Shown: positions 8,385 to 42,918 of the stretch, piece by piece
How the letters are laid out: every line of letters starts with the position of its first letter
Numbering within the stretch: position 1 is the first letter of the stretch
From: Methanomethylovorans hollandica DSM 15978
Lineage (GTDB): Archaea; Halobacteriota; Methanosarcinia; Methanosarcinales; Methanosarcinaceae
DNA length: 64,000 nt
NCBI RefSeq assembly: GCF_000328665.1
Contig: NC_019977.1
Location: 1-64,000, forward strand
Direction: 5' to 3'
Made by a program: the position numbers and the translations under genes
Notes under the pieces: generated by a model
The model's database searches: none
What the model was told of the DNA's origin: nothing
Seen by the model: only the letters and a program-made list of their open reading frames with translations

Positions 8385-8400
8385 GAGATTTATATAAACT
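8385..8400 (-). promoter_or_regulatory. Possible TATA box for mtbA copy 1
   Basis: AGTTTATATAAATCTC on the minus strand resembles an archaeal TATA box. A second candidate (TTGTATATAG, 8311-8320) lies nearer the gene; the sequence alone does not decide between them. Confidence 0.4.
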
Positions 8401-8445
8401 AGTTCCGTTACTGTTTTTTCACTTTGATTTCTCACTTAAAGTTCA

Positions 8446-8907: not shown

Positions 8908-8944
8908 TTGATCACCATTTTCCTGAGTTCTATATCAATAAATA

Positions 8945-8969
8945 AAATAAAAAGCCAGCAGAGCCGGCA
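8945..8969 (-). terminator. Terminator after the mtmCBP operon
   Basis: On the minus strand GCCGGC and GCTGGC form a short hairpin with one wobble pair, followed by a TTTTTATTTT run. It lies directly after the stop codon of the last small membrane-protein gene and separates it from the SORL gene. Confidence 0.6.
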
Positions 8970-9224: not shown

Positions 9225-9235
9225 CTTATACCTCC

Positions 9236-9511: not shown

Positions 9512-9520
9512 CCCTCCTTA

Positions 9521-10903
9521 TTAGCTCCTGTGCATTACCGGATTTGGCCATCCCATATCGCGTTCCCAGTCATGCTCACTTTCCATGCTCTTGTACCTCC
9601 AGTTGAAGTAGAAGTACGCTACTATGTAGAACACCAGCCCAAAGATCAGATTGTAACGGTATCCCCAATTGAGTGTCGAGAGAATTATTATTGCAAGGAA
9701 TATAGTAAAGTAAGCTATCCATGGCTGCAAGGGTCCTATGAACGGACGCACCTTGCTCGAATGCTGTGGGAACATTTTTCTGAACCTTATAAGAGCAAAT
9801 GGGATCATGACATAGGCAACCATTCCTGATGTGATCGAGAAGGTTATAACCTGGTCAAGGAAACCACTAAATGCAAAAGCAATAGCTATAGGCATTGTAA
9901 AGATCACAGCTCTGTAAGGTGTGTAATATCTTGGGTGCACGGCTGCGAACCAGGGTGTCAGGAAATTATCCCTGGACAATGCAAACCATGACCTTGAAGA
10001 GTCACACACACATCCGTTTGCACTGGCAATACAGGTAAACAATGTACCTATGGCCAGGAACACTACCAGGAAATACATACCACTTGAAGTTGCTGCCTCA
10101 TAAAGGGGATATACAGATACTCCGAGTACTGATGCGGGTATAAGGCCAGAACATAGAAACAGCGTCATACCTGCTCCAATAAGCAGAGTGATCATACCAG
10201 CCTGTTGTCCCAGTGGAACTGCCCTTGAGGGATGCTTGCATTCTTCTGCGCACATTGCCGCACCTTCTATTCCCAGATAGAACCAGGGACCGAACTGCAA
10301 TGCAGCAAATATTCCCACAATCCCGTTAGGCATTGCGCCTGAGATCAATTCTGCAGGGTTCCATGGTATATTTCCTATTCCCAGGAGATTGAAGAAGAAG
10401 AACATGATTATAGCTATGAAAGCGGTCATGGTTAGCGCAAAGTTAAGAGTAAGTGCAGCCACGACTCCGCGGTAGTTGATAAATGTAAGGATCGATATCA
10501 CAAGCAATGTAACTGGTAATACTTGTATCTCCGGAAAGATCGATTGGGCTATTGATGCCACGACAATTGAATCTGCAGCTTCCAAGGCAATATATTCCAT
10601 GTACACGGCAAGACCAACTATGGCAGCTGCTCCTGGTCCTATGAACAATCTTGCCCAGTCATAGGGACCTCCCGCAAGTTTTGTAGCGGCTCCAAGTTCA
10701 CTAGCACACAGTGCTACCATAACATACATCGTACCTGCTACAAGCAGTGCAAACAGGGAACCAAGTATACCACCCTTTGCAACTGTGAAGTTCCACCCCA
10801 TATATTCTCCGACAAGCACTATGCCGACACCAAGAGCCCATACGTGATAAGGTCTCAATGTTTTTACAAGGGTGGGGGATTCTGAACTCGTTTCTTCGGT
10901 CAT
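9521..10903 (-). CDS. mtmP: Monomethylamine permease MtmP (APC superfamily)
   Basis: The protein is 460 residues with about 12 membrane segments and the amino acid-polyamine-organocation (APC) fold. The glycine-rich first helix (VWALGVGIVLVGEYMGWNF) and the GPWFYLGIEGAAMCAEE stretch are typical. In Methanosarcina an APC permease follows mtmC-mtmB and is named MtmP, and the order here is the same, so import of monomethylamine is the likely role. AGGAGG precedes the ATG. Only the first mtmCB copy has this permease gene. Three tiny membrane-protein genes surround it. Confidence 0.82.
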   Translation of the reverse strand: MTEETSSESPTLVKTLRPYHVWALGVGIVLVGEYMGWNFTVAKGGILGSLFALLVAGTMYVMVALCASELGAATKLAGGPYDWARLFIGPGAAAIVGLAVYMEYIALEAADSIVVASIAQSIFPEIQVLPVTLLVISILTFINYRGVVAALTLNFALTMTAFIAIIMFFFFNLLGIGNIPWNPAELISGAMPNGIVGIFAALQFGPWFYLGIEGAAMCAEECKHPSRAVPLGQQAGMITLLIGAGMTLFLCSGLIPASVLGVSVYPLYEAATSSGMYFLVVFLAIGTLFTCIASANGCVCDSSRSWFALSRDNFLTPWFAAVHPRYYTPYRAVIFTMPIAIAFAFSGFLDQVITFSITSGMVAYVMIPFALIRFRKMFPQHSSKVRPFIGPLQPWIAYFTIFLAIIILSTLNWGYRYNLIFGLVFYIVAYFYFNWRYKSMESEHDWERDMGWPNPVMHRS

Positions 10904-10918
10904 TGAGTTTTCCTCCTT

Positions 10919-11020
10919 TTATGATTTTTTAGACACTTTTACAGCATCCAGCAACACCCAACCTATCAACAAGAAATCGATGAGATAAATTGCACCATTT
11001 ATCATGGTCCATGTGTCCAT
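10919..11020 (-). CDS. 33-residue single-pass membrane peptide between mtmB and mtmP
   Basis: A short reading frame, ATG at 11020 and TAA at 10919, encodes one hydrophobic helix (AIYLIDFLLIGWVLLDAV) with a basic end (KVSKKS). GGAGG lies eight bases before the ATG. It ends 15 bp before the mtmP start. The ribosome site, the transmembrane pattern and the place in the operon support a real gene. Function is unknown; an accessory peptide for MtmP is possible. Confidence 0.6.
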   Translation of the reverse strand: MDTWTMINGAIYLIDFLLIGWVLLDAVKVSKKS

Positions 11021-11089
11021 TTTAATATGCCTCCGCTGTTTTATATAATTAATAGATATTTCTACTTGGGCTAACCTCCATAAAAAAAA

Positions 11090-11113
11090 AGCCAGCGATT
11101 AATTCGCCGGCTT
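11090..11113 (-). terminator. Terminator-like hairpin after mtmB copy 1
   Basis: On the minus strand GCCGGCGA and TCGCTGGC pair around a short AT loop, followed by nine T residues. Because mtmP lies downstream, this would act as a partial terminator that lowers expression of the permease relative to mtmCB. Confidence 0.65.
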
Positions 11114-11125
11114 GGTTTTGGAGGC

Positions 11126-12502
11126 TTAGAACACCAGCCCCAGTCCTTCGAGCTTCTTTCTTGCTCCTTCGTAGACTTTCATGTATTCATCCGTTGGTTC
11201 GATTGTCTTGACGTTGTAGCATTCCTGGAACGTCTTGCCAGCAGGTGCTTTAGCATAGTCGTTCTCGTACATCTTGACGAGGTTGTCCAAGATCTTGTTG
11301 ACCTCTGGGATCTCCATTCCGGCAGTAGCCCTTGCAGTTTCTCCCATCATCCTGGCTTCCATACCTGTGGTCTTGTCAAGTGCAACACCCTTTGCGGCTG
11401 CGACACCAGAGAGGATCTCACGTCCGGAAGCAGTGTCTGTGACGGACTGTGCTGCAGCTTCCAGCAGGCACATCTCGGTACATGGACCTGCACATGGGTA
11501 GTACTGGTTGCCTGAGAGAATGTTAGTGAACTCACTGATGGTTGCACATGTCCAGCCTGCGATCATGAGGGTTTCTCTGGTGTTGGTGGAACCCCATCTG
11601 ATGTGGACAGGACCGTCAAGGTGCCAGCTTGCATTGCTCATCACCATTGCGTTGATGTGGGTTGCAATGTCCACAATTGCTGTCTCTTCTACGCCGCCGG
11701 TGTAACCACCGAATATGGGCATCTGTTCGTCCATAATGATGTTGCTGTTAGCCTGATAGTGTGCTATTACAGCAATTGCGTCCAGGTCGATCTTGAGCTC
11801 ATTGAGCTGTGAGACCTCGTGACTGTCACTGCTTTTCATGCCACCGGCACAGTCTGCAGCTATATTTCCCTGAGCGGACAGGGAAGTCTCTGGTCCCTAT
11901 ATGCCCATACCTGGGCGGCCTGCCATAGCACATGCCTGCTTGATAAGCCTGGTTTCTGTCTTGGCTGCAAGTATTTCGTATGGGCTGCCTGGTACAGGTG
12001 ACTTGCCGCGGATGGACATCATCACACCATCTACAATGGTGTCGACTTCCTTCTCAAGGGCATAGCTCATGTGTATTGGCATGAACATATCTTCGGATAT
12101 TGGGGAACCAGTTGGGCCACCCTGAATAATAGGTTTCTTCTTGTCGCCGACATTTCTCTTGCTGACACGCACAGCGTCCCTGCCAGTTCCCAGCCTGAAG
12201 TCCTCGCCTGAATTCTTAATGGCATCCCAGATCTCGTCTTCAGTATACTTGACGACCCTGTGGGTGTCGGTACAGAAGATACCACATTCAAGAAGTAACT
12301 CGAAACCTGCCTTGAACAGTTTCTCCATCATGTCCTTGTCAGTGGGGACGAACTCGCCCTTGAAATCCAGACCATACTTCTGCTTAAGTTCCATTGTCTT
12401 GGATGGGAGGACCATAAGATCCCAGTCGTCCTGAGTTATCTTCTCGCCGCTCTTTGCGCGGTCATAGAAATCATAAACATCAAATGATTTTCTGTATGTC
12501 AT
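11126..12502 (-). CDS. mtmB: Monomethylamine methyltransferase MtmB, copy 1 (pyrrolysine at residue 202)
   Basis: MtmB transfers the methyl group of monomethylamine to the corrinoid of MtmC. The reading frame is interrupted by one TAG at 11897-11899, codon 202, exactly where MtmB carries pyrrolysine; translation through it gives 458 residues, the normal length. Residues known to lie near pyrrolysine in the MtmB structure are present: Glu259, Gln333 and Tyr335. The flanking sequence GRPGMGI-Pyl-GPETSLSAQGN is typical. GGAGG precedes the ATG, 12 bp after mtmC. It differs from copy 2 by one visible residue (Thr268 here, Ala268 there). It is not a pseudogene, because pylTSBCD is present. Confidence 0.95.
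11866..11885 (-). promoter_or_regulatory. PYLIS-like hairpin after the mtmB copy 1 amber codon
   Basis: TTCCCT and AGGGAA form a 6-bp stem with an 8-nt loop, starting 11 bases after the TAG on the minus strand. It occupies the place of the proposed pyrrolysine insertion element of mtmB. That element is not strictly required in Methanosarcina, so its role is uncertain. Confidence 0.45.
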
Positions 12503-12514
12503 CTACAAACCTCC

Positions 12515-13165
12515 TTATTTCATGATATCAATGGCTACACGGGCTGCTTCAGCTGCGTTCTCTGCTGTTGCATCAGCACCGATTTCTTTTATCCATTCCT
12601 TGGTAACAGGTGCGCCACCGAACATGCACTTTACACTGTCCCTGAGGCCTGCTTCCTTGAGCAGTATGACCACGTCTTTCTGGCCAAGCATGGAGGTTGT
12701 CATGAGTGCAGAACCTACGAGGACGACTTTATGTCCCTTGAGTTTGGCTACTTCTTCAACGACAGTCTCGTTAGGTACATCCACACCCAAATCAACGATG
12801 GTAAATCCGCTGGCACCCAGCATTGTGGACACTAACCTGTGACCTATGTCGTGAATGTCTCCTTCCTGCACAAAAGTAATTGCGGTACCTGTGCCTTCTC
12901 CCGGCTTCTCCTTTGCAAGTTCAGGGGCCAGGATTTCCATTGCGCCGTTCATGGCCTTAGCTGACATCATGATCTGAGGTAAGTAGATCTCAGCTTTCTC
13001 AAATTTTTCACCAACAATATTCATACCCAATGCAAGGCCATCGTTGATAGCATCAAATGCAGGAACACCGGCTTCAAGGGCTTCCTTTGCTGCTGCAACG
13101 CAACCATTGATGTCCTGTTTGACTATGGTGTCTCTAAGTTTGTCAAGAATTTCTTGTTTACCCAT
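12515..13165 (-). CDS. mtmC: Monomethylamine corrinoid protein MtmC, copy 1
   Basis: MtmC carries the corrinoid that accepts a methyl group from MtmB and gives it to MtbA. The 216-residue protein has an N-terminal helical cap (about 1-85) and a Rossmann-type B12 domain with the cobalt-ligand motif D-x-H-x-x-G at EGDIHDIG (His105), then SALMTT and GGAP. AGGAGG precedes the ATG. It is the first gene of the operon with mtmB and has the same protein sequence as the copy at 37857-38507. Confidence 0.94.
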   Translation of the reverse strand: MGKQEILDKLRDTIVKQDINGCVAAAKEALEAGVPAFDAINDGLALGMNIVGEKFEKAEIYLPQIMMSAKAMNGAMEILAPELAKEKPGEGTGTAITFVQEGDIHDIGHRLVSTMLGASGFTIVDLGVDVPNETVVEEVAKLKGHKVVLVGSALMTTSMLGQKDVVILLKEAGLRDSVKCMFGGAPVTKEWIKEIGADATAENAAEAARVAIDIMK

Positions 13166-18092: not shown

Positions 18093-18509
18093 ATGACAGA
18101 AGCAAAGATACTTGTAGTTGAAGATGAGAACATAGTTGCTCTTGAAATAAAGAAAAGATTGCAGAAGTTAGGCTATATAGTGCCGAGTGTGGCGTCAACC
18201 GGGGAAGACGCGATCAGTAAGGTTGAAGGTATTCTTCCGGATCTTGTGTTGATGGACATAATGCTCAAAGGTGAGATCGACGGAATAGATGCTGCAGGGG
18301 AGATCAGGAAGCGTTTTAACATACCTGTAGTCTATCTAACTGCATATTCTGATGAGGAGACATTGCAGAGGGCCAAGTTGACAGAACCCTATGGTTATAT
18401 TCTGAAACCTTTTGAGGAAAATGATCTGCGTACAACAATAGAAATTGCACTATATAGACATCAAAATTTAAATGGCAGCAAAAAAAAAGAAGGTTATATC
18501 ACTGAATAA
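18093..18509 (+). CDS. Single-domain response regulator
   Basis: This 138-residue receiver domain has the acidic pocket (VVEDEN), the phospho-acceptor aspartate in LVLMDIML, the switch threonine in VVYLTAYS and the conserved lysine in YILKPFEEND. It has no output domain, so it must act through another protein, perhaps the neighbouring FilR1-type regulators. It begins 8 bp after the kinase gene with GGTGGGAG as ribosome site. The last 16 bp overlap the end of the convergent pylD gene. Confidence 0.9.
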   Translation: MTEAKILVVEDENIVALEIKKRLQKLGYIVPSVASTGEDAISKVEGILPDLVLMDIMLKGEIDGIDAAGEIRKRFNIPVVYLTAYSDEETLQRAKLTEPYGYILKPFEENDLRTTIEIALYRHQNLNGSKKKEGYITE

Positions 18510-19273
18510 AGCATAGATGTAACTCCTATGAAGAGAGGTTCCATGACTAGATCTACTCTGTATTTACCTCCGACTTCCTGAGGCAATCCACAGGGTATTC
18601 CAGGTGTTGAGACCAGACATCTCTCTGCTATCATACCCTCGGTTATTGTGTTTGCATTGGGTGTTGCTTCGAATACCATGGAAAACTTCTTTCGATCCTC
18701 TTTGCAGTATTCCTTAATTCCAATTTCATGAGCTGCTTTATCCAGAAAATCTCTGTTAGGATCACAGGCATAAACATCGAACCCTTTTTCTGCAAGATGT
18801 TTAGCTCCTGCATATCCTACTCTTCCAAGGCCTATAACAAGGATCTCACTTGAGCCTGAGTCCTTAAACCTGGAAGCGATCTCTGAATAGATGATGCCTG
18901 TTGCTTCATGGTTAGTGACCAATTTTCCATTCCTGAGATTGTGAGCGATGAAAAGATGATCATCAGCCATTAATAGTATATCTGCGCCATCCCTTATAGC
19001 CTCATAATATCCTGCCACATCTGTATGCTGAGTAATGAAACCTTCAAGCCCAAGGCGCTGAGCTATGAAAAGCAAGGAAGAGGTAAAATTGCTTATGATT
19101 CCATTACCTGCGGTTATGGGTATTATACCAACCTTTTCCGATCCCAGGTCTTTTCCATAGAGTTCTTTGCAGATATCTGTAAGTCTGGTTCCTGTAACTC
19201 TTTCAATGGTAGACTCACTCTCTTCAAATTGAGCAGAGAGATTATCAAGGTCTTCGGGTGTGAGCAATGCCAT
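18494..19273 (-). CDS. pylD: Pyrrolysine biosynthesis protein PylD
   Basis: PylD is the dehydrogenase that oxidises (3R)-3-methyl-D-ornithyl-N6-lysine, after which the pyrroline ring of pyrrolysine closes. The 259-residue protein has the Rossmann NAD-binding motif VIGLGRVGYAGAKHL at about 145. Its start codon overlaps the pylC stop codon (TAATG), so the two are translationally coupled. It is the last gene of pylTSBCD. Confidence 0.93.
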   Translation of the reverse strand: MALLTPEDLDNLSAQFEESESTIERVTGTRLTDICKELYGKDLGSEKVGIIPITAGNGIISNFTSSLLFIAQRLGLEGFITQHTDVAGYYEAIRDGADILLMADDHLFIAHNLRNGKLVTNHEATGIIYSEIASRFKDSGSSEILVIGLGRVGYAGAKHLAEKGFDVYACDPNRDFLDKAAHEIGIKEYCKEDRKKFSMVFEATPNANTITEGMIAERCLVSTPGIPCGLPQEVGGKYRVDLVMEPLFIGVTSMLYSVI

Positions 19274-20364
19274 TATGGTACCTCCTGTTCTGGCGTACTA
19301 AGTATCATTTCGTGTGCCTTTTTTCTGTTCGTTTCAGCTTTTTCCTGGTCTCCACCCCAGGTTATAACTGTAAATGCCTTATGTTCTCCATCACGCTGGA
19401 ATATCTCTATACTTTCCGATTCATGGATCGGCCTGTAATTGTTTCCCATTGACAGAATGTGCTCACCAACAGGTGACAATTTTCCATCCTTGAGGATAAG
19501 GTGCTCATATATGCAGTAATTACCCTCTGGTGCCTGGACTATCTCCTGTACACCTTCTGTAAAAGCCTGCATAAGTAGTTCCAGAAGATTAACTCCTGAA
19601 GAATGATAGACAGCTGTAGGTGTCTGGCTGGGGAACCTGGCGTCTATTTCTAGCACTTTCAGTCCCTGAGGACTGTAAATTGCTTCCACGTCCATGATAC
19701 CCTTGAGCTTAAGATTGCGTGCAAGTTCATAGGTGATCCTCCTTAGTTCAGGATTGTGACTGACAGGTGTTACCATATGGCAATCGTGGGTATCATCAAT
19801 ATGGATCTTTGTTTCCTTTACCACCGCAAAATGTTCTCCATCTCCTACAACTTCAAGAGACAACACATCTCCTTCCACATATTCTTCTATGAGCATGGTA
19901 GGGTCAAGACCTTTCAGGCCTTCATCATCATAGATTATGGCTGTACCAATGCTGCTGCTCATGCAGGAAGGTTTTACAAAATATGGTGGATGAGTGGGTT
20001 TATCTGTAGGTGTTGGAATACCTATGGATCTGAAGTATTTTTTCGATGTGTTCTTATCCCTGCTTATCCTGTATGCATCAAAATCAAAGAGCAAAGAACA
20101 ATGAAGCCTATCCTTTATGGTCTCAAGGAAATCGATAGTATCGAAATTTTCGTTTACAGGGATCATGGCATCGACAGCTGCTGATATCTCTATGAGCCTT
20201 TCAGGTTGCTCCACAATGTCAAAACAATGGAACGTATCAACCAGATCCTTTATGAACGCATTTTTATTCCTGTCTATCAATACAACTCTAATGCCTGCTT
20301 TTCTGGCATGGTATGCTACCTCGAAACCCTGCAGCTTACCTCCGATCAAACATATTTGTTTCAT
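19273..20364 (-). CDS. pylC: Pyrrolysine biosynthesis protein PylC
   Basis: PylC is an ATP-grasp ligase that joins (3R)-3-methyl-D-ornithine to the epsilon-amino group of lysine. The 363-residue protein has an N-terminal Rossmann-like preATP domain (CLIGGKLQGFEVAYHARKAG), then the ATP-grasp region (YFVKPSCMSSSIG, MLIEEYVEGDVLSLEV, LKVLEIDARFPSQTP). CGGAGG precedes the ATG, and the gene begins 10 bp after the pylB stop. Confidence 0.93.
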   Translation of the reverse strand: MKQICLIGGKLQGFEVAYHARKAGIRVVLIDRNKNAFIKDLVDTFHCFDIVEQPERLIEISAAVDAMIPVNENFDTIDFLETIKDRLHCSLLFDFDAYRISRDKNTSKKYFRSIGIPTPTDKPTHPPYFVKPSCMSSSIGTAIIYDDEGLKGLDPTMLIEEYVEGDVLSLEVVGDGEHFAVVKETKIHIDDTHDCHMVTPVSHNPELRRITYELARNLKLKGIMDVEAIYSPQGLKVLEIDARFPSQTPTAVYHSSGVNLLELLMQAFTEGVQEIVQAPEGNYCIYEHLILKDGKLSPVGEHILSMGNNYRPIHESESIEIFQRDGEHKAFTVITWGGDQEKAETNRKKAHEMILSTPEQEVP

Positions 20365-20374
20365 GCCACCACTC

Positions 20375-21424
20375 CTATCCTAGTAAATTGTTGAAATCTG
20401 ATTGTGCAGCTGGTTCCATTCCCATGGTCCTGAGCTTTTCTACCACGCTCTTAGGGTCCCTCTTTCTCTCTTCATGTTTGCGGTCATAGTTTGCCACACC
20501 CTCAAGTGGAGAATCTGAAGGAATTATAGATGTTACCACATTAGCACCTGCATTTAAGCGGTATACCATACCTTCAATGCCTTCTACGTCAAGAGATGCA
20601 GGTATAAGTCTATCTGGGAACATCAGCCTTAATACTGATATTATCTTGAGTTCTGACAGGTTTGATTCCTGCACTTTTTTCTCAAGAGGGGTTCCTTCCT
20701 GGGGAATGAAGGTCATCACCCGGACCATCTGAGGATTCTCTTTTGCCATGCTCCTCAGAGAAATTAGTGTTGATTCGACATCATTACCCACACCTGTGAG
20801 CAGCCCATCCTCAACACAGTAACCTATCGTCTGAGCAAATTCACGGGCATGCATCCGGTCTGAGAAGGATTGCCCGACTCTCAGCTTCTCATAGAGTTCT
20901 TGATCATAAGTTTCCTGATACAAGGCTAAGAAGTTAGCACCATGCTCCCGCAGCATTTTCAGTGTTTTGTCATCCAGCACCCCTGGGGATATCATGACTG
21001 GAAGACCGAGTTCCTCTTTGACTATATCTATGACCTTAGCGAATTGTCTAGGATTTTCATGAAAGTACGGGTCTTCCCCCATGGTGAGGTCCACCATGTG
21101 GATCTGTTCTCCTTTAAGTTTCCTGCATATATTACGGATATCTTCAAGTTCCAGCCGGTACCTGTTGATCTTGTTCATTGTGTTGTAGTAACAGAATGCA
21201 CACCTGTTCTTACAGTGTGTGGAAAAGTAGACGAAACTGTAGAGGAACACCTTGTTCCCGAAATAGTGATCTCTAACTTTCCTTGCTACATAATGAAGCT
21301 TTTCAAGTTCTGTACTGTCCGTAATCAAAAGCATTTCCCGAAGTTCATCTTCAGGTATTTCTATTCTATTTATGACCTTTAGTGCATATGCATCAAGGTC
21401 ATTTTTGTCCATATTAGTGAACAT
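20375..21424 (-). CDS. pylB: Pyrrolysine biosynthesis protein PylB (methylornithine synthase)
   Basis: PylB is a radical SAM mutase that converts lysine to (3R)-3-methyl-D-ornithine. The [4Fe-4S] motif is visible as HCKNRCAFCYYN (CX3CX2C) near residue 65. The start at 21424 is preferred over the ATG at 21472: GAGGGGATC lies just before it, it avoids overlap with pylS, and it gives 349 residues, close to the known length. The gene ends in TAG (20375-20377), an amber codon; readthrough would add about 12 residues before TAA. This may be harmless or a form of feedback. Confidence 0.93.
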   Translation of the reverse strand: MFTNMDKNDLDAYALKVINRIEIPEDELREMLLITDSTELEKLHYVARKVRDHYFGNKVFLYSFVYFSTHCKNRCAFCYYNTMNKINRYRLELEDIRNICRKLKGEQIHMVDLTMGEDPYFHENPRQFAKVIDIVKEELGLPVMISPGVLDDKTLKMLREHGANFLALYQETYDQELYEKLRVGQSFSDRMHAREFAQTIGYCVEDGLLTGVGNDVESTLISLRSMAKENPQMVRVMTFIPQEGTPLEKKVQESNLSELKIISVLRLMFPDRLIPASLDVEGIEGMVYRLNAGANVVTSIIPSDSPLEGVANYDRKHEERKRDPKSVVEKLRTMGMEPAAQSDFNNLLG

Positions 21425-21434
21425 TGAGATCCCC

Positions 21435-23000
<1,566 letters not shown>

Positions 23001-23072
23001 TGGCGGAAACCCCGGGAATTTAACCCGGCTGAACGGATTTAGAGTCCATTTGATCAACATGATCCGGTTTCC
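23001..23072 (-). tRNA. pylT: tRNA-Pyl (anticodon CUA), amber decoding
   Basis: On the minus strand the 72-nt gene starts GGAAACCGGATCATG and ends in GGTTTCCG followed by encoded CCA. The acceptor stem GGAAACC/GGTTTCC pairs perfectly. The anticodon CTA is at 23042-23040 within ACTCTAAATCC, and the T arm is CCGGG-loop-CCCGG. The small D loop and short variable region match known tRNA-Pyl. It reads UAG in mtmB, mtbB and mttB. Confidence 0.97.
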
Positions 23073-23148: not shown

Positions 23149-25080
23149 TCAGGATTTCTTACCAACCTTCAGACTTCCCACTCCCATGAACACAAGTTTT
23201 GTTTCAATGGGGACAGGGCTTCCTTCATGTAGATTTATATCTTCCCTGGACATATCTATTCTCACATCGTTCCAGTCCATATCAGCTTCTCTCATATAAT
23301 CCATGACCAGATTTTCTCCTACATGTTCAGCATACTTAAGAGCTTCTCCATGAGTCGAAAACTCCTCAAATCCTCCGGGAGTGAACACAAGGAAAAATCT
23401 TTGTTTCTCCCTGAATACAGCTTTGATGAGAATTTGTATTCTCTTGACACCCTGTCCTACCAATGCACCTACAGCGTTACCGACTTCTGCAAAAGGTGGT
23501 AATATTATCTCTGCATCGATGATGCTCTGCATCTGCTGCACATAGGCCCTCACCGGTCCACCCAACAATACAACAGGTACAGAAAGCCTGAACTTAGAGA
23601 AGAACTCACCTCTGAGTATTTTTTCTATCTCTTTTCCGTTAACTCCTTTAAGCATGTAGGACATCAGGTTCAAGGCCATGTTGTAGGCAACTTCTTTCTT
23701 TATATGCTCAGCAAGTTCCTGCTCGTTCATTTGTACAAGCCTTGACATAATAGTTGCACCTATGAACGAAGCTTCCTTATCCCATTCATTGTAATCATCC
23801 AATATATGCAGTGCATCTGTGGGTGTGAACCCAATGGCTTGTATAAGCCTTTTCTTAATAAGGTAATCCAGATGTTCTACTGATACAGGACGACCGAACT
23901 TCCAATAAATATCGCTTATTGATACCGGTTCATTACCTATTGTACTAAGTATATCCTGTTCATACGAACTGAGTTTTACCGGCTCTTTTCCTGTGCGTAC
24001 GAAGAACTTGGTCGGTTGCACGTTCTCTCCGAGTTCCACACGTGCAGGAGTGCGTCCCATTTTCAGTGTTTCCTTGAAACCCGGATACTGAACAGCAGCC
24101 ACACACAGAGGTATTACCCTGCGCGGCCCGATGTTTATCTTCCTGTTCTTTATCCATACGTGACTATCCCCCCCCATGGCAGATGTTTCCATCCGGATAG
24201 CTTTAACTTTTGTATTCCAGCCACCTACTTTAGCACCATCTTCGCAGAGTTCGGGCAGTCCTTTATACAAGAGAGAAACATCAGTACTTGTACCGCCCAC
24301 ATCTATCACTGCACATGTGTCCCTCTCGGACAGGAAGGAAGCTCCTACAAGGCTTGCTGCAGGACCTGTAAAAATGGACTCTATAGGTTTCTGGATGGCT
24401 TCTTTGATATTTATTAACGAACCATCACATTTCAGCATCATGAGCTTTGCGTTGATACCTCTTCTCTCAATATCAGATACAATTGCATCGATGAACTGAC
24501 GGGCAATGGGTATGAGCTGGGCGTTAAGATAGGCTGTAATACCTCTGTCATAGGCTCCCAGGTCCTGCGAGAGCTCATGTCCGCATACCACAGGCATCCC
24601 TGTTGCTTTTACTATGTGATCTTTAATCTGCAATTCATGTTCAGGGTTACGCACACTGAAGTATGAAGAAACTGCAAAAGCGGATACATTATCCTTCACC
24701 CTGTTCACAAATTCTGTTACTGCCTCTATATCAAGAGCATCTGCTTCAGCTCCGGTAGCAGTATGTCCTCCTCTGACCATCACATATTCCTGGACAGACG
24801 TGTCTTGGGGTACCAGATAATTACCCACAAGGATAAGACCTACCGGATAGCCTGTTCGCTCAAGTATTGTATTAGTTGCTAAGGTCGTGGATACTGAGAC
24901 GAGCTTTATATCTTTCAGGTATTGAGGGTCCAGGCCATCTATAGCGTTCTCGATGCCCTCAAGCAATTCAGGATAAGTAGTAAGGGCTTTGTATGAAGCC
25001 ATAACTTTCTTGTCAGAGTTCCTTATGATCACTGCATCTGTATAAGTGCCACCTGCATCAATGCCCAGACTATATTGCAT
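23149..25080 (-). CDS. Hydantoinase/oxoprolinase-family (HyuA-like) ATPase, copy 1
   Basis: This 643-residue protein belongs to COG0145-type ASKHA ATPases. It has phosphate motif 1 (GIDAGGTYTDAV) and phosphate motif 2 (CAVIDVGGTSTDVSLL), and GGP motifs near residue 530. The known HyuA enzymes hydrolyse cyclic amides with ATP and usually need a HyuB subunit, which is absent. The start at 25080 is chosen because GAGAGGG precedes it and the paralog aligns from there; an ATG 45 bp upstream has no ribosome site. It follows its paralog by 70 bp. Substrate unknown; a role in methylamine metabolism or corrinoid handling is a guess from context. Confidence 0.8.
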   Translation of the reverse strand: MQYSLGIDAGGTYTDAVIIRNSDKKVMASYKALTTYPELLEGIENAIDGLDPQYLKDIKLVSVSTTLATNTILERTGYPVGLILVGNYLVPQDTSVQEYVMVRGGHTATGAEADALDIEAVTEFVNRVKDNVSAFAVSSYFSVRNPEHELQIKDHIVKATGMPVVCGHELSQDLGAYDRGITAYLNAQLIPIARQFIDAIVSDIERRGINAKLMMLKCDGSLINIKEAIQKPIESIFTGPAASLVGASFLSERDTCAVIDVGGTSTDVSLLYKGLPELCEDGAKVGGWNTKVKAIRMETSAMGGDSHVWIKNRKINIGPRRVIPLCVAAVQYPGFKETLKMGRTPARVELGENVQPTKFFVRTGKEPVKLSSYEQDILSTIGNEPVSISDIYWKFGRPVSVEHLDYLIKKRLIQAIGFTPTDALHILDDYNEWDKEASFIGATIMSRLVQMNEQELAEHIKKEVAYNMALNLMSYMLKGVNGKEIEKILRGEFFSKFRLSVPVVLLGGPVRAYVQQMQSIIDAEIILPPFAEVGNAVGALVGQGVKRIQILIKAVFREKQRFFLVFTPGGFEEFSTHGEALKYAEHVGENLVMDYMREADMDWNDVRIDMSREDINLHEGSPVPIETKLVFMGVGSLKVGKKS

Positions 25081-25150
25081 ATTTTCCCTCTCTACTATTC
25101 TATAGTTTGATGTGTTCAAATCCACACATTAAATAACCTTTATTTACCCT

Positions 25151-27073
25151 TTACTGCCCTATACCAAGGAAACTCAGCCTTGTTTCCAGAGGTGTGGTGC
25201 CTTCTTCCAAACTTATGTCGTTACGGCTTATATTAATCTTTACTCCAGTAAGGTCCAGACAAGATGATGACATATAATCCATCACAAGTTCAGAACCGAT
25301 ATTCTCTGCATGATTTAATGCTTCAGCATAGGATGAAAACTCTTTTCTCCCACCTGGATAGAAAACAATATAAGATTTAGGTTTAGCATTATATTTAGAT
25401 TCTGATAAAGAAGCTTTTACAAGCACTTCCAGCCTTTTAATACCTTTAGCTGCAAGTGCTCCAATTGCATTGCCCACATCTGCATGTTCCGGAACAACGA
25501 TAAGAGAGTCGAAATATTTACCGAGACCATCCTTGTAAGCAGTTACAGGCCCTCCCAGCAATACAACTGGCATTTTGACCTTGATACTTGCAAAGAATTT
25601 ACCACTAATCATCTTCTTTATTTCTTTCCTATCCACATCTTCCAGCAAAAAAGCAGCAAGGTTAAGGGCTATATTGCTTGTTACTTGTTCCTTTACCCTG
25701 GAACAGAGTTCCATCTTTTCCATGCCTGCAAACCTGGACAAAACTTCAGAGCCTATATGTGCTGCTTCTACATCCCACTTTTGATATTCTCCCAGAACAT
25801 GAAGAGCATCAGTAGGTGTAAAGCCTATGGTCCTTACTAACCTTTTCTGGATGAGCATATCCATGGTCATAGGACTTGGCATTCTATTTTCGTTCCAGTA
25901 GATGTCACTCACTTTATAGGGGACATCACTGAGGCGGTCGAACAAGTCCTTTTCTTCAGGGCTCAGTTCATCAGGTATCTTTCCGCTTCTCATGAAAAAC
26001 TTCGTTGGTTGTATATTTTCCCCTATTTGATTGCGTAGGATATTTTGCTGCATCATCAGTTTTTCCTTGATCTCCGGATACTTCAATGCCGCTAAACATA
26101 AGGGTATGACCCTGCGCGGTCCTATATGTATCTCATGGTTAAGTATCCAGACGTGGCTATCTCCTCCGATAGCGGAAGTTTCCATTCTGAGGGCCTTTAC
26201 TTTTGTCTGCCACTTCCCTACAACTGCTCCCAGATCAGAGATTTCAGGAAGGCCTTCGTGCATCACAGAAACATCAGTGCTTGTTCCACCTACATCGACC
26301 ACTGCACAGGTTTCAAAACCTGAAAGATGAGACGCGCCCAATAAACTAGCTGCAGGGCCAGAAAAAATGGATTGAATAGGTTTTTTAAGTGCTTCCTCGA
26401 TGCTCACCATTGATCCGTCACATTTGAGCATCATTAGTTTTGCTTCAATGTTCCTCTTTTTGATCTCGGAAGTTACAGCCTGCATAAATTGATTAGTGAG
26501 AGGTATCAGCTGTGCATTAAGATAAGCAGTCACACCTCTTTCATAAACTCCCAGGTCCTGAGATAGTTCGTGTCCACACACAACCGGAAGGCCTGTAAGC
26601 TGCATAACACTTTCCTTTACCTGCAACTCATGTTCCGGATTACGGACACTAAAATAGGAAGATACAGCAAAAGCTGAGACCTTGTTCTTTACTTTCAGAA
26701 TGAACTCCTCTACTGGCTGGATATCCAGGGGCTCAACTTCATTGCCAGCACTGTTGTGCCCTCCTCTTATCTGGATACTGTACTCTATTTTCCTATCAGT
26801 GGGTATACCCGTTTTTCCTATCAGTATTAGACCTGCCGGATAACCCGTATTTTCAAGTATCGTGTTTGTTGCAAGAGTTGTTGAAACACATGCCAACCTC
26901 ACGTCAGAAAGTAGTTTTTGATCAAGACCGTCCAAAGCTTCACGTATTCCAAATATCAGGTCAGGGTATGTTGTCAATGCTTTGTTTGCCTGCAAGACCC
27001 TGCCATCATCACTGTTAAGAAGAACTGCATCAGTATATGTTCCTCCGGCATCTATTCCCAGACTATATCTCAT
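25151..27073 (-). CDS. Hydantoinase/oxoprolinase-family (HyuA-like) ATPase, copy 2
   Basis: This 640-residue paralog of the downstream gene has the same motifs: GIDAGGTYTDAV at the N-terminus, CAVVDVGGTSTDVSVM near 260, and a GGP motif near 530. Similarity extends along the whole length, so the pair arose by tandem duplication. It overlaps the end of the DUF1638 gene by 11 bp, showing one operon. No HyuB or amidase partner is visible. Its function cannot be read from sequence. Confidence 0.8.
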   Translation of the reverse strand: MRYSLGIDAGGTYTDAVLLNSDDGRVLQANKALTTYPDLIFGIREALDGLDQKLLSDVRLACVSTTLATNTILENTGYPAGLILIGKTGIPTDRKIEYSIQIRGGHNSAGNEVEPLDIQPVEEFILKVKNKVSAFAVSSYFSVRNPEHELQVKESVMQLTGLPVVCGHELSQDLGVYERGVTAYLNAQLIPLTNQFMQAVTSEIKKRNIEAKLMMLKCDGSMVSIEEALKKPIQSIFSGPAASLLGASHLSGFETCAVVDVGGTSTDVSVMHEGLPEISDLGAVVGKWQTKVKALRMETSAIGGDSHVWILNHEIHIGPRRVIPLCLAALKYPEIKEKLMMQQNILRNQIGENIQPTKFFMRSGKIPDELSPEEKDLFDRLSDVPYKVSDIYWNENRMPSPMTMDMLIQKRLVRTIGFTPTDALHVLGEYQKWDVEAAHIGSEVLSRFAGMEKMELCSRVKEQVTSNIALNLAAFLLEDVDRKEIKKMISGKFFASIKVKMPVVLLGGPVTAYKDGLGKYFDSLIVVPEHADVGNAIGALAAKGIKRLEVLVKASLSESKYNAKPKSYIVFYPGGRKEFSSYAEALNHAENIGSELVMDYMSSSCLDLTGVKINISRNDISLEEGTTPLETRLSFLGIGQ

Positions 27074-27884
27074 TCAAGTCTGCCCTCTTTTTTGTTATAG
27101 AATCTTTTGCCCGCTGATATGACTGTTCTGCGATCCTGATAGTGCCTTGCATATCGACTATTCGGAAATCAAATGCTTGAGCAAACTCTTCCACCTTTGC
27201 ATCAAAACTCTCCTCGTAAACAAGACCTGTATTGATCTTACCTACATTCTTGTATCCTGCGTAATCGAAAACTATCTTGGTCATGACAGTGTTATCAGGG
27301 TCGTTCGTAAGACGGGCAATTACAGCCATCTCCTTCCAGAAAGCTGCACCCATGGGCGTAAGGAAATATACGCCTTCTCCACCGGTTTCTTTTAGAGCTT
27401 TAAGATATGGTTCTCTTCCTCCAAGGGAAGCGCCTATACAGTCATCGATTATCTCTCCATCTTCTTCTCTTAGAATGTGCACAGGACAAGAAAGATGTGC
27501 AAAGTCTCTGTTTAGATTGCCCAGTACATTCCCACACAAACCATAGAATACTAGGATAGTGTCGGCATACACGGACATGATGCTGATCTCTTTATACACG
27601 CTTTCTTTGAGTAATTGAGGAGATGCATCAAGGGAAAAACCAAGGATATTCACAAGAATACAATAATTTGTATCATTTGTATCTTGTTCATTATGCATTA
27701 AGTCCTCTATGTCATTTGGTGAACAAACTGTATGGTCTATATTATTTTCAGATAATTTCCTTAGAATGCCTGCGGCATCCAAGCTGTCTACAACTAGAAT
27801 TCTGGTGATCTGAGAGTCGTTCTTGATGAGGTGTACGATCTCATCCTCAAAGATTCTGCAGGCAATTATGGACATTAAAGTCAT
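27063..27884 (-). CDS. DUF1638 family protein
   Basis: The 273-residue protein matches the DUF1638 pattern: a conserved CR motif at the N-terminus (SIIACRIFEDEI), LCGNVLGNL, a cysteine in CPVHILREEDGEIIDDCIG and GGREPYLKAL. Function is unknown; such genes occur beside methylamine or other methyltransferase genes in methanogens. The start at 27884 is chosen because GAGGT lies four bases upstream; an ATG 48 bp before it lacks a ribosome site. It is the first gene of an operon with two HyuA-like ATPases and ends in TAG. Confidence 0.8.
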   Translation of the reverse strand: MTLMSIIACRIFEDEIVHLIKNDSQITRILVVDSLDAAGILRKLSENNIDHTVCSPNDIEDLMHNEQDTNDTNYCILVNILGFSLDASPQLLKESVYKEISIMSVYADTILVFYGLCGNVLGNLNRDFAHLSCPVHILREEDGEIIDDCIGASLGGREPYLKALKETGGEGVYFLTPMGAAFWKEMAVIARLTNDPDNTVMTKIVFDYAGYKNVGKINTGLVYEESFDAKVEEFAQAFDFRIVDMQGTIRIAEQSYQRAKDSITKKRADLNEI

Positions 27885-27962
27885 TAGAACCTCATATATA
27901 TTCTTATGCAGATGCGTGAACTGCACACTCACTTTGCTCGTGTGTAAAAAGCATAGTCCATA

Positions 27963-37856: not shown

Positions 37857-38507
37857 ATGGGTAAACAAGAAATTCTTGACAAACTTAGAGACACCATAGT
37901 CAAACAGGACATCAATGGTTGCGTTGCAGCAGCAAAGGAAGCCCTTGAAGCCGGTGTTCCTGCATTTGATGCTATCAACGATGGCCTTGCATTGGGTATG
38001 AATATTGTTGGTGAAAAATTTGAGAAAGCTGAGATCTACTTACCCCAGATCATGATGTCAGCTAAGGCCATGAACGGCGCAATGGAAATCCTGGCCCCTG
38101 AACTTGCAAAGGAGAAGCCGGGAGAAGGCACAGGTACCGCAATTACTTTTGTGCAGGAAGGAGACATTCACGACATAGGTCACAGGTTAGTGTCCACAAT
38201 GCTGGGTGCCAGCGGATTTACCATCGTTGATTTGGGTGTGGATGTACCTAACGAGACTGTCGTTGAAGAAGTAGCCAAACTCAAGGGACATAAAGTCGTC
38301 CTCGTAGGTTCTGCACTCATGACAACCTCCATGCTTGGCCAGAAAGACGTGGTCATACTGCTCAAGGAAGCAGGCCTCAGGGACAGTGTAAAGTGCATGT
38401 TCGGTGGCGCACCTGTTACCAAGGAATGGATAAAAGAAATCGGTGCTGATGCAACAGCAGAGAACGCAGCTGAAGCAGCCCGTGTAGCCATTGATATCAT
38501 GAAATAA
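37857..38507 (+). CDS. mtmC: Monomethylamine corrinoid protein MtmC, copy 2
   Basis: The 216-residue protein is identical to copy 1, with cobalt ligand His105 in EGDIHDIGHR. AGGAGG precedes the ATG. It is followed after 12 bp by mtmB copy 2. A separate promoter suggests that the two copies may be expressed under different conditions. Confidence 0.94.
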   Translation: MGKQEILDKLRDTIVKQDINGCVAAAKEALEAGVPAFDAINDGLALGMNIVGEKFEKAEIYLPQIMMSAKAMNGAMEILAPELAKEKPGEGTGTAITFVQEGDIHDIGHRLVSTMLGASGFTIVDLGVDVPNETVVEEVAKLKGHKVVLVGSALMTTSMLGQKDVVILLKEAGLRDSVKCMFGGAPVTKEWIKEIGADATAENAAEAARVAIDIMK

Positions 38508-38519
38508 GGAGGTTTGTAG

Positions 38520-39896
38520 ATGACATACAGAAAATCGTTTGATGTTTATGATTTCTATGACCGCGCAAAGAGCGGCGAGAAGATAACTCAGGACGACTGG
38601 GATCTTATGGTCCTCCCATCCAAGACAATGGAACTTAAGCAGAAGTATGGTCTGGATTTCAAGGGCGAGTTCGTCCCCACTGACAAGGACATGATGGAGA
38701 AACTGTTCAAGGCAGGTTTCGAGTTACTTCTTGAATGTGGTATCTTCTGTACCGACACCCACAGGGTCGTCAAGTATACTGAAGACGAGATCTGGGATGC
38801 CATTAAGAATTCAGGCGAGGACTTCAGGCTGGGAACTGGCAGGGACGCTGTGCGTGTCAGCAAGAGAAATGTCGGCGACAAGAAGAAACCTATTATTCAG
38901 GGTGGCCCAACTGGTTCCCCAATATCCGAAGATATGTTCATGCCAATACACATGAGCTATGCCCTTGAGAAGGAAGTCGACACCATTGTAGATGGTGTGA
39001 TGATGTCCATCCGCGGCAAGTCACCTGTACCAGGCAGCCCATACGAAATACTTGCAGCCAAGACAGAAACCAGGCTTATCAAGCAGGCATGTGCTATGGC
39101 AGGCCGCCCAGGTATGGGCATATAGGGACCAGAGACTTCCCTGTCCGCTCAGGGAAATATAGCTGCAGACTGTGCCGGTGGCATGAAAAGCAGTGACAGT
39201 CACGAGGTCTCACAGCTCAATGAGCTCAAGATCGACCTGGACGCAATTGCTGTAATAGCACACTATCAAGCTAACAGCAACATCATTATGGACGAACAGA
39301 TGCCCATATTCGGTGGTTACGCCGGCGGCGTAGAAGAGACAGCAATTGTGGACATTGCAACCCACATCAACGCAATGGTGATGAGCAATGCAAGCTGGCA
39401 CCTTGACGGTCCTGTCCACATCAGATGGGGTTCCACCAACACCAGAGAAACCCTCATGATCGCAGGCTGGACATGTGCAACCATCAGTGAGTTCACTAAC
39501 ATTCTCTCAGGCAACCAGTACTACCCATGTGCAGGTCCATGTACCGAGATGTGCCTGCTGGAAGCTGCAGCACAGTCCGTCACAGACACTGCTTCCGGAC
39601 GTGAGATCCTCTCTGGTGTCGCAGCCGCAAAGGGTGTTGCACTTGACAAGACCACAGGTATGGAAGCCAGGATGATGGGAGAAACTGCAAGGGCTACTGC
39701 CGGAATGGAGATCCCAGAGGTCAACAAGATCTTGGACAACCTCGTCAAGATGTACGAGAACGACTATGCTAAAGCACCTGCTGGCAAGACGTTCCAGGAA
39801 TGCTACAACGTCAAGACAATCGAACCAACGGATGAATACATGAAAGTCTACGAAGGAGCAAGAAAGAAGCTCGAAGGACTGGGGCTGGTGTTCTAA
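38520..39896 (+). CDS. mtmB: Monomethylamine methyltransferase MtmB, copy 2 (pyrrolysine at residue 202)
   Basis: The amber codon is at 39123-39125, codon 202; the read-through product is 458 residues. Glu259, Gln333 and Tyr335 are present. It differs from copy 1 by Ala268 instead of Thr268. No permease follows this copy: a terminator and a convergent MtmB-like gene lie downstream. Confidence 0.95.
39137..39156 (+). promoter_or_regulatory. PYLIS-like hairpin after the mtmB copy 2 amber codon
   Basis: TTCCCT and AGGGAA form a 6-bp stem with an 8-nt loop, beginning 11 bases after the TAG, as in copy 1. Similar structures are proposed to help pyrrolysine insertion in mtmB. Confidence 0.45.
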
Positions 39897-39908
39897 GCCT
39901 CCAAAACC

Positions 39909-39939
39909 AAGCCGGCGAATTAATCGCTGGCTTTTTTTT
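39909..39939 (+). terminator. Terminator of mtmCB copy 2
   Basis: AGCCGGCGA pairs with TCGCTGGCT around a short AT loop and is followed by eight T residues, 12 bp after the mtmB stop codon. Confidence 0.75.
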
Positions 39940-39998
39940 GAACTGATATTTCTATCTTTAACTGTAATTTTTCTATGTTTGAATAAAATTTATAAACT

Positions 39999-41372
39999 TT
40001 AAAAAGCTTCTCCGGGGAAATGACCCATTATCTCATAGGACACTTTTCTGTAGATTAATTCATACTCTTCAGTAGGTTCGAGATCATATTCTGATTTTAT
40101 TCTATAACATTTATCAAAAGACTTTCCTGCTGGAGGATTAATTAATTTGTTCTCATACTTCGAATATATCTTTGTGATTAGTCTGTTGGCTTCAGATAAT
40201 GACAAATGTGTAGCCATTTGTGCTATTTCTCCCATGAACCTTGATTCCAGTCCTGAAGAATGATCAGGTATTCCACCACGTGCACCTACTGGTCCCAGTA
40301 ACATGTCCCTGCCGCATACAGTGTCCCCTATAGCCTGAGCAGCAGTTTCATAGAACATCATATCAGTAGATATACCAGCAGCATTCCAATAATATCTCGC
40401 AGTGTAATAGTCCATATTCCTTGATATTGCAAGTGAGGAGAGATTTGAAGCCCAAAGTATCTCTTTTGCAGAGGAAGATCCAGTAGCTGCGTGTGAAGCT
40501 CCAGAGGCATGTATACTTGAATGTACGAGCACTTTTGACTGTAACGTCTCAGCAACATCTATTATTGCAAGTCCTTCAGCCGAACCAATGCAAGGTCCTC
40601 CAAAAACAGGTACCTGTCCAGAAATATAATGATTTCCGTGCTCTTGGTGAAAGATACATTTGGACAATGTCTCGTAGTCTATTTTGAGATCATCCATGTA
40701 GACTTCCTGAGGGTCATATTTTGAGTATAGCTCGTCAGATGAAACAAGCAAATATGATGTAGGAAGTGTGGGTGTGCTGGGTCCCATCAATGCAAGCCCT
40801 TCACGCCCTCCGATCTTTGTAGCAAGTCTTTCATTACGTGCAGCTTTTAGGACAGCTAACATCTCCAATGGGCTCTTTGGTCTTACATATTCTCCACAGA
40901 ACTGCTTCATTGAACCGCTATAGATTCCCTGCACAACATTCTCAAGTACTGCACTTAAGTTAATGTAAAGGAAGTTTTCTTCGGAAACACTTCCCCCCAT
41001 TGGTCCACCAATAATAATGGGGGGAATTGGTGATAAAGGATATCTGCGGTTAACAGTTACTTTTTCTTTCAGTCTGCCGATCTCTAGAGAATTGATCACA
41101 TTGAGAGATGTCAGGATATCTTCTTCGTCTATCTGAATCACTTTTTCTGTGCTTTTACAGTACACACCTACAGAATGCAATAGTTCTATACCTGCCTCAA
41201 ATGTCGCATCTGCAAGTTCAAGGTTATCAGGTACAAAACTTTTTCCATCATATTTGATCCCATATTTTAAAGCAAGTTCTTCTGATTTCTTAAAAACATT
41301 TAGGTCATGTTGCTTCTCAGTCCTGCTTTCGCCTTCAATTGCGCTCTTGAGGTACTTATACATGTTTTTCAT
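39999..41372 (-). CDS. MtmB paralog lacking pyrrolysine (methionine at that position)
   Basis: This uninterrupted 457-residue protein aligns with MtmB along its length (GREGLALMGPST with GRPGMGI-Pyl-GPET; QVPVFGG with QMPIFGG; PPAGKSFDKCY with APAGKTFQECY). Where MtmB has Pyl202 it has Met196, codon ATG at 40787-40785. The three other active-site residues of MtmB are also changed: Glu259 to Gly252, Gln333 to Tyr327, Tyr335 to Trp329. It is therefore unlikely to demethylate monomethylamine in the same way. By analogy with MttB relatives without pyrrolysine, it may use another methylated substrate, or be regulatory. No corrinoid protein gene is adjacent. It is convergent with mtmB copy 2. Confidence 0.88.
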   Translation of the reverse strand: MKNMYKYLKSAIEGESRTEKQHDLNVFKKSEELALKYGIKYDGKSFVPDNLELADATFEAGIELLHSVGVYCKSTEKVIQIDEEDILTSLNVINSLEIGRLKEKVTVNRRYPLSPIPPIIIGGPMGGSVSEENFLYINLSAVLENVVQGIYSGSMKQFCGEYVRPKSPLEMLAVLKAARNERLATKIGGREGLALMGPSTPTLPTSYLLVSSDELYSKYDPQEVYMDDLKIDYETLSKCIFHQEHGNHYISGQVPVFGGPCIGSAEGLAIIDVAETLQSKVLVHSSIHASGASHAATGSSSAKEILWASNLSSLAISRNMDYYTARYYWNAAGISTDMMFYETAAQAIGDTVCGRDMLLGPVGARGGIPDHSSGLESRFMGEIAQMATHLSLSEANRLITKIYSKYENKLINPPAGKSFDKCYRIKSEYDLEPTEEYELIYRKVSYEIMGHFPGEAF

Positions 41373-41834
41373 GTCGACACCCAGATAAAAAGGGACTTAA
41401 TTAGTTACATTTATTTTTTAAAATTATTTAGTTTAACTTTCAACGCTCATCCTTATATTTATTTTGATATTCTAGGTATGCATAATATAAAAAACATCTT
41501 ATATCATATTCTGACTATATTTAACGAAGTTTTTCTTTAAAACAGCCAGTTTCATTGTATGCATCTTATCTCATTTTTTTACGGTTTCTGAGTCTTAAGA
41601 TAGTATTACTTATATTTTTCTATTATTTACAATCTATGGAATGTAGGTTTTTAAAAGAAAAACTCAATTTTCTTTTTGTTTATTGTTATGAACTCTTGTA
41701 AAAAAAGCCTACAATCATTGATTCTCATTTCTTTCTTTTTTTTAATTAGAACAATATATTTTATTGTGCTGTGCTTGTATTTCCTTTCCTAACTTTTCCT
41801 TTTTGTTCTTATATATATTTATGCATGTTGCAAC
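41373..41834. other. AT-rich gap between the MtmB paralog and mtbA copy 2
   Basis: No gene or clear repeat is seen in these 462 bp. The region is rich in T and A runs and separates two divergent genes, so it should hold the promoter of the MtmB paralog (a weak TATA-like AAAAAATAAATG lies near 41410-41425 on the minus strand). Confidence 0.4.
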
Positions 41835-41851
41835 CAAAAAATATATATTTA
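41835..41851 (+). promoter_or_regulatory. TATA box of mtbA copy 2
   Basis: CCAAAAAATATATATTTA is a strong BRE/TATA match about 47 nt before the mtbA start codon, which implies a leader of about 20 nt. Copy 1 has a different upstream region. Confidence 0.6.
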
Positions 41852-41884
41852 AGTCTCTCCCTTTTGTCACGATCAATATAAAAG

Positions 41885-42918
41885 AGGAGACTGATTATGT
41901 CCGATTACACCCCTAAAGAAAGGCTTGCCCGTATTTTAACAGGGCAGAGCGTAGACCGTATGGCAGCTATTTCTGTCACGCAGACCGGTACCGTAGAACA
42001 AATGGAAGCTTGTGGCGCATTCTGGCCGCAGGCCAATGAAGATGCCCAGCTCATGGCAAATTTAGGCGAAGCTGGTCATACCGTTGTAGGTTTTGAAGCG
42101 GTACGTGTGCCCTTTGATATCACTGCTGAAGCTGAGTTCTTCGGCTGCCAGATCAAGGCAGGTACACAGGAACAACAGCCTTCTGTGGTAGGCCATGTGG
42201 TCAAGAGCGTTGATGACATAGCTAAATTGGAAGGTTACAGTCTGGACCACGGCAGGATAGGCGTTGTCTGTGAGGCTATTAAGATCCTGGCAGACAAGTA
42301 CGGTAAGGAATTACCCATCATTGGCAGTATGATAGGTCCTTTCTCCCTTGCCCAGCATTTGAACGGTGATGACTGGTTCATGAATATCTTTACAGATGAG
42401 AACCTTGGCTTGAAGCTTATGGAGTTCTCCACAGCTTTCAGTGTTGCATACGCAAAGAAGATGGTGGAGAACGGTGCTGATACTATGGTCATTATCGACC
42501 CAACAGCAAGTTACCAGCTGATTGGAGCTGAGTTCTATGAGAAGTTCGTAGTACCATTCCACAAGAAACTGGTAGATGCCATGAACGAGCTGAACGTGCC
42601 TACAGTACTCCACATCTGCGGTGATACCACAGCTGGTCTTGCACTCATGGAATCCAGTGGTGTGAACGCCATCAGTATCGATCAGAATGTAGATCCTGCA
42701 ACAGCCGTCAATGCAGTCAAAAAGGCATTGATAGTTGGTAACCTGGATCCTGTGAATGTGCTCTGGAACAAGACACCTGAGTTCATCAAAGAGAAATCAA
42801 AGGAAGTCCTTGATGCAGGGGTCGCATTGCTTGCACCAGGTTGTGGTATTGTCAGCAAGACACCCACAGTGAACCTGCAGGCAATGGTGGAAATGGCGAA
42901 GGCACATAAGTATTGAAC
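41885..42918 (+). repeat. Inverted repeat arm A2 (mtbA copy 2)
   Basis: This 1034-bp partner of 7226-8259 lies in inverted orientation. It covers the ribosome site, the whole mtbA gene and two bases after the stop codon. Confidence 0.9.
41897..42916 (+). CDS. mtbA: Methylcobamide:CoM methyltransferase MtbA, copy 2
   Basis: The 339-residue protein is identical to copy 1, with zinc ligands in VLHICGDT and LAPGCGIVS. It stands alone, with its own strong TATA box and a short leader; no co-transcribed methyltransferase gene is adjacent. Confidence 0.93.

Follow-up and report, generated by a model that had tools for sequence, protein, structure and literature searches.

What does an MtmB do without pyrrolysine (Pyl)? 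The question is raised by a gene at 39999-41372 (-) in Methanomethylovorans hollandica, whose product is a homolog of the methyltransferase MtmB with methionine at the position of Pyl202. The gene lies in the window, by which we mean the whole 64,000-nucleotide stretch analysed, the first 64 kb of a 2,428,904-bp contig in a two-contig genome of 2.71 Mb. With moderate confidence, we propose that its product, which belongs to a separate clade within the MtmB superfamily, is a Pyl-independent corrinoid methyltransferase of the MT1 type; it would take a methyl group from a methylated, probably quaternary, amine and feed MtbA.

The window gene and its surroundings

The frame is open throughout and yields a protein of 457 aa (P0001); from gene order, the gene is probably Metho_0036. 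The Pfam family PF05369 (MtmB) spans residues 4-448 (E 1.6e-145; 485.9 bits against a cut-off of 25; profile positions 3-445 of 450). BLASTP aligns the protein with the window's own MtmB over 451 columns with 8 gaps at 32% identity, and identity to both Pyl-MtmB copies in the window is about 32%. Thus, the first-pass annotation was right to describe an uninterrupted gene that aligns with MtmB over its full length; it also cited a gapless block of 75 residues, and gapless alignment is real, but the longest blocks are in fact 165 and 133 residues. A frameshift or misread TAG is ruled out by the open frame and the absence of a PYLIS element: Rfam found none in the window gene and matched PYLIS_1 at both mtmB genes. 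NCBIfam gave no match for either MtmB.

In the alignment, the ATG of codon 196 (40785-40787 (-)) stands opposite the TAG of mtmB, and Pyl202, Glu259, Gln333 and Tyr335 of MtmB become Met196, Gly252, Tyr327 and Trp329, exactly as had been claimed. Glu at the position of MtmB E229 is retained here and in the remainder of clades A and B (see below), so that the earlier statement that the whole amine-binding chemistry is changed applies to E259, Q333 and Y335 but not to E229. The solved structures nearest in sequence are MtmB 1L2Q/1NTH and 1TV2. An AlphaFold2 model of the protein (pLDDT 94.2, pTM 0.94) superimposes on MtmB 1NTH with a TM score of 0.95 and an rmsd of 1.6 Å, and the MtmB TIM-barrel fold is therefore kept, as had been supposed; against MttB and MtgB the TM score is about 0.54. 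The protein has no match to PF06253 (MttB superfamily, COG5598), and Pfam detects no DNA-binding or other additional domain in it.

The gene is embedded in a methylamine region, again in agreement with the first-pass annotation. Convergent to it lies an mtmB gene (38520-39896 (+)), a TAG read-through ORF with the in-frame TAG for Pyl202 at 39123-39125 and PYLIS_1 at 39123-39222 (Rfam), preceded by the corrinoid protein gene mtmC (37857-38507 (+); B12-binding_2). On its other side, an AT-rich divergent intergenic region of 524 bp (41373-41896) with two presumed promoters separates it from mtbA (41897-42916 (+); probably Metho_0037), which encodes the amine-specific methylcorrinoid:CoM methyltransferase. 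The mtmC, mtmB and mtbA genes occur in two near-identical sets within 36 kb, at 7228-13165 (-) and 37857-42916 (+). The MtmC proteins of the two sets are identical, as are the MtbA proteins (the other mtbA is at 7228-8247), and MtmB differs at about one residue; the second Pyl-mtmB copy, at 11126-12502 (-), served as a yardstick. Three mtbA genes have been named in M. hollandica, Metho_0007, Metho_0037 and Metho_0355 (PMC5748143); we find copies at 7228 and 41897 of the window and a third at about 354 kb. The window also holds the tRNA-Pyl gene pylT (23001-23072 (-); ARAGORN) and, adjoining it, ORFs that look like pylSBCD on inspection (18494-22733 (-)). The only MttB of the genome (31461-32879), which is also its sole PF06253 match, contains Pyl, and the window gene is thus the only non-Pyl MttB/MtmB-type enzyme found there. 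A plasmid location was considered and dropped, with no PLSDB match at the DNA or protein level in a search from which the window's own genome was perhaps excluded.

Two hydantoinase/oxoprolinase-family proteins and a DUF1638 protein are encoded next to the pyl genes (23149-27932 (-)). The association recurs in Methanococcoides, M. bombayensis and Methanohalophilus (L019, L106, L202-L204), where homologs of these adjoin a gene for a non-Pyl MtmB or for an orphan MtqC-like protein.

A constrained clade and its genomic neighbours

Relatives were sought in the family (112 genomes) and in genome contigs; the genus names of the coded genome groups were assigned by matches to named contigs and are probable. 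Relatives of the window protein are 52-100% identical to it, and the next proteins only about 36%. Clade A (77-100% identity) is present in 24 of 27 Methanolobus-group genomes and, in the genus of the window itself, in 4 of 6. Clades B and C (52-64%) are present in 9 of 11 Methanococcoides-group genomes, in 4 of 8 Methanohalophilus-group genomes and in a small number of further genera. The 31 Methanosarcina-group genomes contain no member. In a tree built without bacterial and Asgard non-Pyl MtmBs, which says nothing on the root or on gain versus loss of Pyl, the window clade comprises 47 rows with support of 100/99. Pyl-MtmB, the MtqB-like loci and a third non-Pyl group all lie outside it.

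Within the clade, dN/dS is 0.02-0.09 (MtbA, 0.04-0.07; MtmB, about 0.1). Residues are at least 95% conserved in 157 of 458 columns, and 62 of these are fixed to a residue unlike the strongly conserved one of Pyl-MtmB. Tyr occupies position 333 (Tyr327) in all 23 tabulated clade-A rows and in 42 of the 44 clade rows; Trp occupies position 335 (Trp329) in 23 of 23 clade-A rows and is nearly invariant in clade B, and in clade C the residues at 335 and 202 are variable. At the Pyl202 position the 44 tabulated rows have Met (33), Leu (4), Phe (3), Val (3) or Ile (1), with Met in three further rows, and clade A has only Met or Leu. Because of this variation, the residue seems to serve as hydrophobic filling and not as a catalytic Met. 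The expectation that Met-containing homologs would form a separate, constrained clade was therefore borne out for the clade and its constraint but not for Met, which is not fixed.

A conserved clade under purifying selection implies that the window gene is not a chance feature. The loss of the Pyl codon and of pocket residues could suggest a decaying pseudogene copy of mtmB, but we give this next to no weight, since the low dN/dS, the conservation, the 47 intact relatives in several genera and the deep, separate clade rule it out. The gene is neither a lone decayed copy nor a protein that aligns poorly outside short motifs.

The third non-Pyl MtmB clade is uncharacterised and comes from Methanosarcina-group and Methanococcoides genomes (L113, L114, L115, L116, L117 and L143:11852-13204). 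Its members have Val or Asp at 333, and several adjoin mtbC-mtbB/mttB clusters.

The neighbours of clade A are strikingly constant. Wherever the upstream sequence can be read, in 24 genomes, its gene and mtbA are divergently oriented, across gaps of 253-678 bp where measured; this mtbA sits in an ArgS-aRF1-radical SAM-mtbA block wherever the contig extends far enough, and mtmCB is usually convergent, downstream of the clade-A gene. Such an arrangement, which holds in most clade-A loci, would suit a Pyl-free enzyme for MMA or DMA that acts as a pyrrolysine-independent backup of MtmB, and the non-Pyl MtmB called MtqB has residual MMA activity (PMC13044021). Against this, E259 and Q333 are both gone and the genome already has two Pyl-mtmB genes. 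Activation of MMA by MtmB is also held to need Pyl, and we consider a backup role quite improbable. The solo position of the clade-A gene, between mtmCB and mtbA and with no corrinoid gene of its own, could also fit the decoy or regulator suggested earlier, here a protein without catalytic activity that would bind to MtmC or to MtbA. We found no positive evidence for such a role and rate it lower still: the whole barrel and pocket are under strong constraint, there is no extra domain such as one for DNA binding, and the genes of relatives are coupled with those of a transporter and of a corrinoid protein, neither of which a decoy would need. The other earlier suggestion, a corrinoid methyltransferase for another substrate, stands as the best reading of an MtmB-fold paralog with a rebuilt pocket in a constrained clade.

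These couplings are found in clade C and in M. bombayensis. The clade-C gene is divergent from a BCCT betaine/carnitine/choline transporter gene in 6 of 6 genomes, at a distance of 374-477 bp; the methyltransferases of these pairs share 68-97% identity and the transporters 79-98%, and the pairs occur in three different surroundings. In M. bombayensis, an MtqC-like corrinoid gene on the same strand precedes the clade paralog by 44 bp. An MttC-like gene that follows a clade gene elsewhere (L105/L026) was rejected as a dedicated partner, as it groups with ordinary MttC in the tree. In Methanococcoides and relatives, a Cdc6/Orc1-like AAA protein with a winged-helix domain, an odd neighbour for a methyltransferase and perhaps a repurposed regulator, is encoded directly downstream of the clade-B gene (L019, L092-L100, L101, L104).

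Methyl donor and corrinoid partner

One non-Pyl MtmB, MtqB of Methanococcoides methylutens Q3c, is a tetramethylammonium/choline methyltransferase (QMA 37, choline 42 and MMA 11 nmol/min/mg), with its cognate MtqC encoded beside it, and is proof that a non-Pyl MtmB can demethylate quaternary amines (Kashyap 2026, PMC13044021). Therefore, the first-pass annotation, which knew of no established counterpart for MtmB, is out of date on this point. The likeliest class of donor is a quaternary or betaine-like amine, given the example of MtqB, the linkage to BCCT and the aromatic residues. Tetramethylammonium or choline itself would be a less likely, though possible, donor. The donor would be a methylated amine already activated for methyl loss, either quaternary or otherwise without need of a Pyl adduct. 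Judging from the residues aligned to MtmB, an aromatic pocket of Tyr327 and Trp329, together with the hydrophobic Met196, may hold the donor at the site that MtmB uses to bind methylamine through Pyl. From the donor, the methyl group would pass to Co(I) in a corrinoid protein that docks on the TIM barrel, and from there MtbA, the product of the divergent neighbouring gene, would move it to coenzyme M.

Some observations count against this reading. The M. hollandica genome has no BCCT transporter, clade C varies at 335 and 202, and the substrates described for Methanomethylovorans species are methanol, simple methylamines and methylated sulfides. Use of tetramethylammonium in this genus is reportedly confined to one isolate.

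A methylated sulfur compound (DMS, methanethiol or DMSP) could be demethylated instead. BCCT transporters are able to carry DMSP. Three clade genera, Methanolobus, Methanomethylovorans and Methanohalophilus, include known DMS users whose enzymes are unsettled (PMC11264916, PMC10762971). However, clade A is invariably paired with mtbA, the nearest characterised relatives use amines, and M. barkeri MtbA is cited as having failed to methylate cobalamin with DMS (PMC10762971). We regard a sulfur donor as improbable, though less so than a role on MMA or DMA.

For the proposed amine methyltransferase, the corrinoid partner may be encoded at a distance. No mtqC-type corrinoid gene adjoins the window gene; an orphan MtqC-like gene lies elsewhere in the M. 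hollandica genome (G000:C2:1561923-1562570), with no amine methyltransferase gene adjoining. Its product belongs to a clade of 14 proteins (support 100/99), sister to MtqC, that includes the M. bombayensis protein encoded upstream of the clade paralog. In 13 genomes read, M. hollandica included, an MtmB, MtbB or MttB homolog stood beside the orphan gene in none (MtaB-type proteins were left out of this search). Within the Methanohalophilus group, 4 genomes have both the orphan gene and the methyltransferase clade and 4 have neither. Family-wide, the orphan gene is present in 11 of the 22 genomes with a clade-B/C gene versus 3 of the 90 others, a figure inflated by genome relatedness. Of the 25 Methanolobus-group genomes with a clade gene, 24 lack the orphan gene, so that its product cannot be the partner in them: clade A there must use another corrinoid protein, and MtmC is the obvious one. 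Thus, we infer that the orphan MtqC-like protein is the leading candidate partner in M. hollandica, with MtmC as the alternative because most Methanolobus lack the orphan gene. The orphan protein makes the biochemistry directly testable.

A further corrinoid protein (G000:C2:353445-354107; L154/L208), encoded without an MT1 gene between a flavin oxidoreductase-like gene and the third mtbA (about 70% identical), was rejected as a partner; it has orthologs in many Methanolobus, and its distribution does not track the clade. Another corrinoid-protein-like ORF, in the G000:C2:134551 region (L160:1207-1758), has a seemingly degraded DxHxxG cobalamin-ligand motif (GAQKEGESSIKRS). In one Methanococcoides genome, a 496-aa protein encoded next to the orphan MtqC-like gene (L195:4526-6013) resembles, by inspection, a sodium:solute symporter of the proline/betaine type.

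MtqB and other known systems

Could the window gene simply be a functional MtqB, acting on tetramethylammonium and/or choline as in Methanococcoides Q3c? It belongs to the same superfamily without Pyl, and Q333Y with an aromatic residue at 335 is common to it and to the MtqB-like group (Y333/F335 in L140-L142). In a reactor degrading QMA, moreover, 85.6% of the archaeal reads came from Methanomethylovorans, and proteomics against the M. hollandica genome yielded no QMA enzyme (PMC5748143); the window gene encodes the only non-Pyl enzyme of MttB/MtmB type found in that genome. However, a tree joining the window clade to the MtqB-like loci L140-L143, recognised by anatomy (an MtqC-like gene directly upstream of a non-Pyl MtmB) and not by Q3c sequence or accession, is rejected (AU p=0.006), and identity to their members is 25-28%. 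In place of the Gly/Gln/Val of the window gene, these loci have Cys259 and Met260 and, in most cases, Cys261 next; Met260 and Cys261 are probably, on our reading of the sequence logo in the MtqB paper, the Met and Cys conserved near the ligand of MtqB. No mtqC adjoins the window gene. In addition, nearly all Methanolobus carry a clade gene, and growth on QMA or choline is not known to be a general trait of that genus. The window gene thus lies apart from the MtqB-like group that anatomy defines, and MtqB function is unlikely, although it is the most credible of the alternatives.

As a Pyl-independent amine methyltransferase distinct from MtqB, the window gene may represent a third functional kind of MtmB-fold enzyme. 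We suggest this more tentatively: such a Pyl-free family, shared by most of the obligately methylotrophic Methanosarcinaceae in our survey and missing from the Methanosarcina genomes in it, would act on a methanogenic substrate not yet recognised for these genera and, in some lineages, use a dedicated, genomically detached corrinoid protein sister to MtqC. The strong conservation of the clade and the coupling of its main branch to mtbA predict that a compound so far unrecognised as a methane precursor is used in sediments, both freshwater and marine. MtqB, reported in 2026, is the only non-Pyl MtmB of known function, and among the methylotrophic methanogens searched the window clade is more widespread than the MtqB-like genes seen.

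Compared with Pyl-MtmB (1NTH/1L2Q), the window protein shares PF05369, length, the TIM barrel (TM 0.95) and a place beside mtmC and mtbA, but differs in having no Pyl, in E259G, Q333Y and Y335W, in its 32% identity, in the lack of a PYLIS and in its separate clade. It thus offers a clean comparison for the pyrrolysine requirement of MtmB, with the same fold and the same place in the pathway and with aromatic residues replacing the Pyl pocket. MtqB is likewise a non-Pyl MtmB homolog with MtbA as second methyltransferase and, in the MtqB-like loci, aromatic residues at 333 and 335; that group differs in forming a distinct clade with its own upstream mtqC and Met260/Cys261, whereas the window gene is solo and has Gln/Val. 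Finally, MtgB and other non-Pyl MttB proteins (COG5598; 9yce, 2qne) are Pyl-free corrinoid methyltransferases that act on quaternary amines, much as we propose for the product of the window gene, but they belong to a different superfamily, at a TM score of about 0.54 and 12-13% identity (9yce, 2qne).
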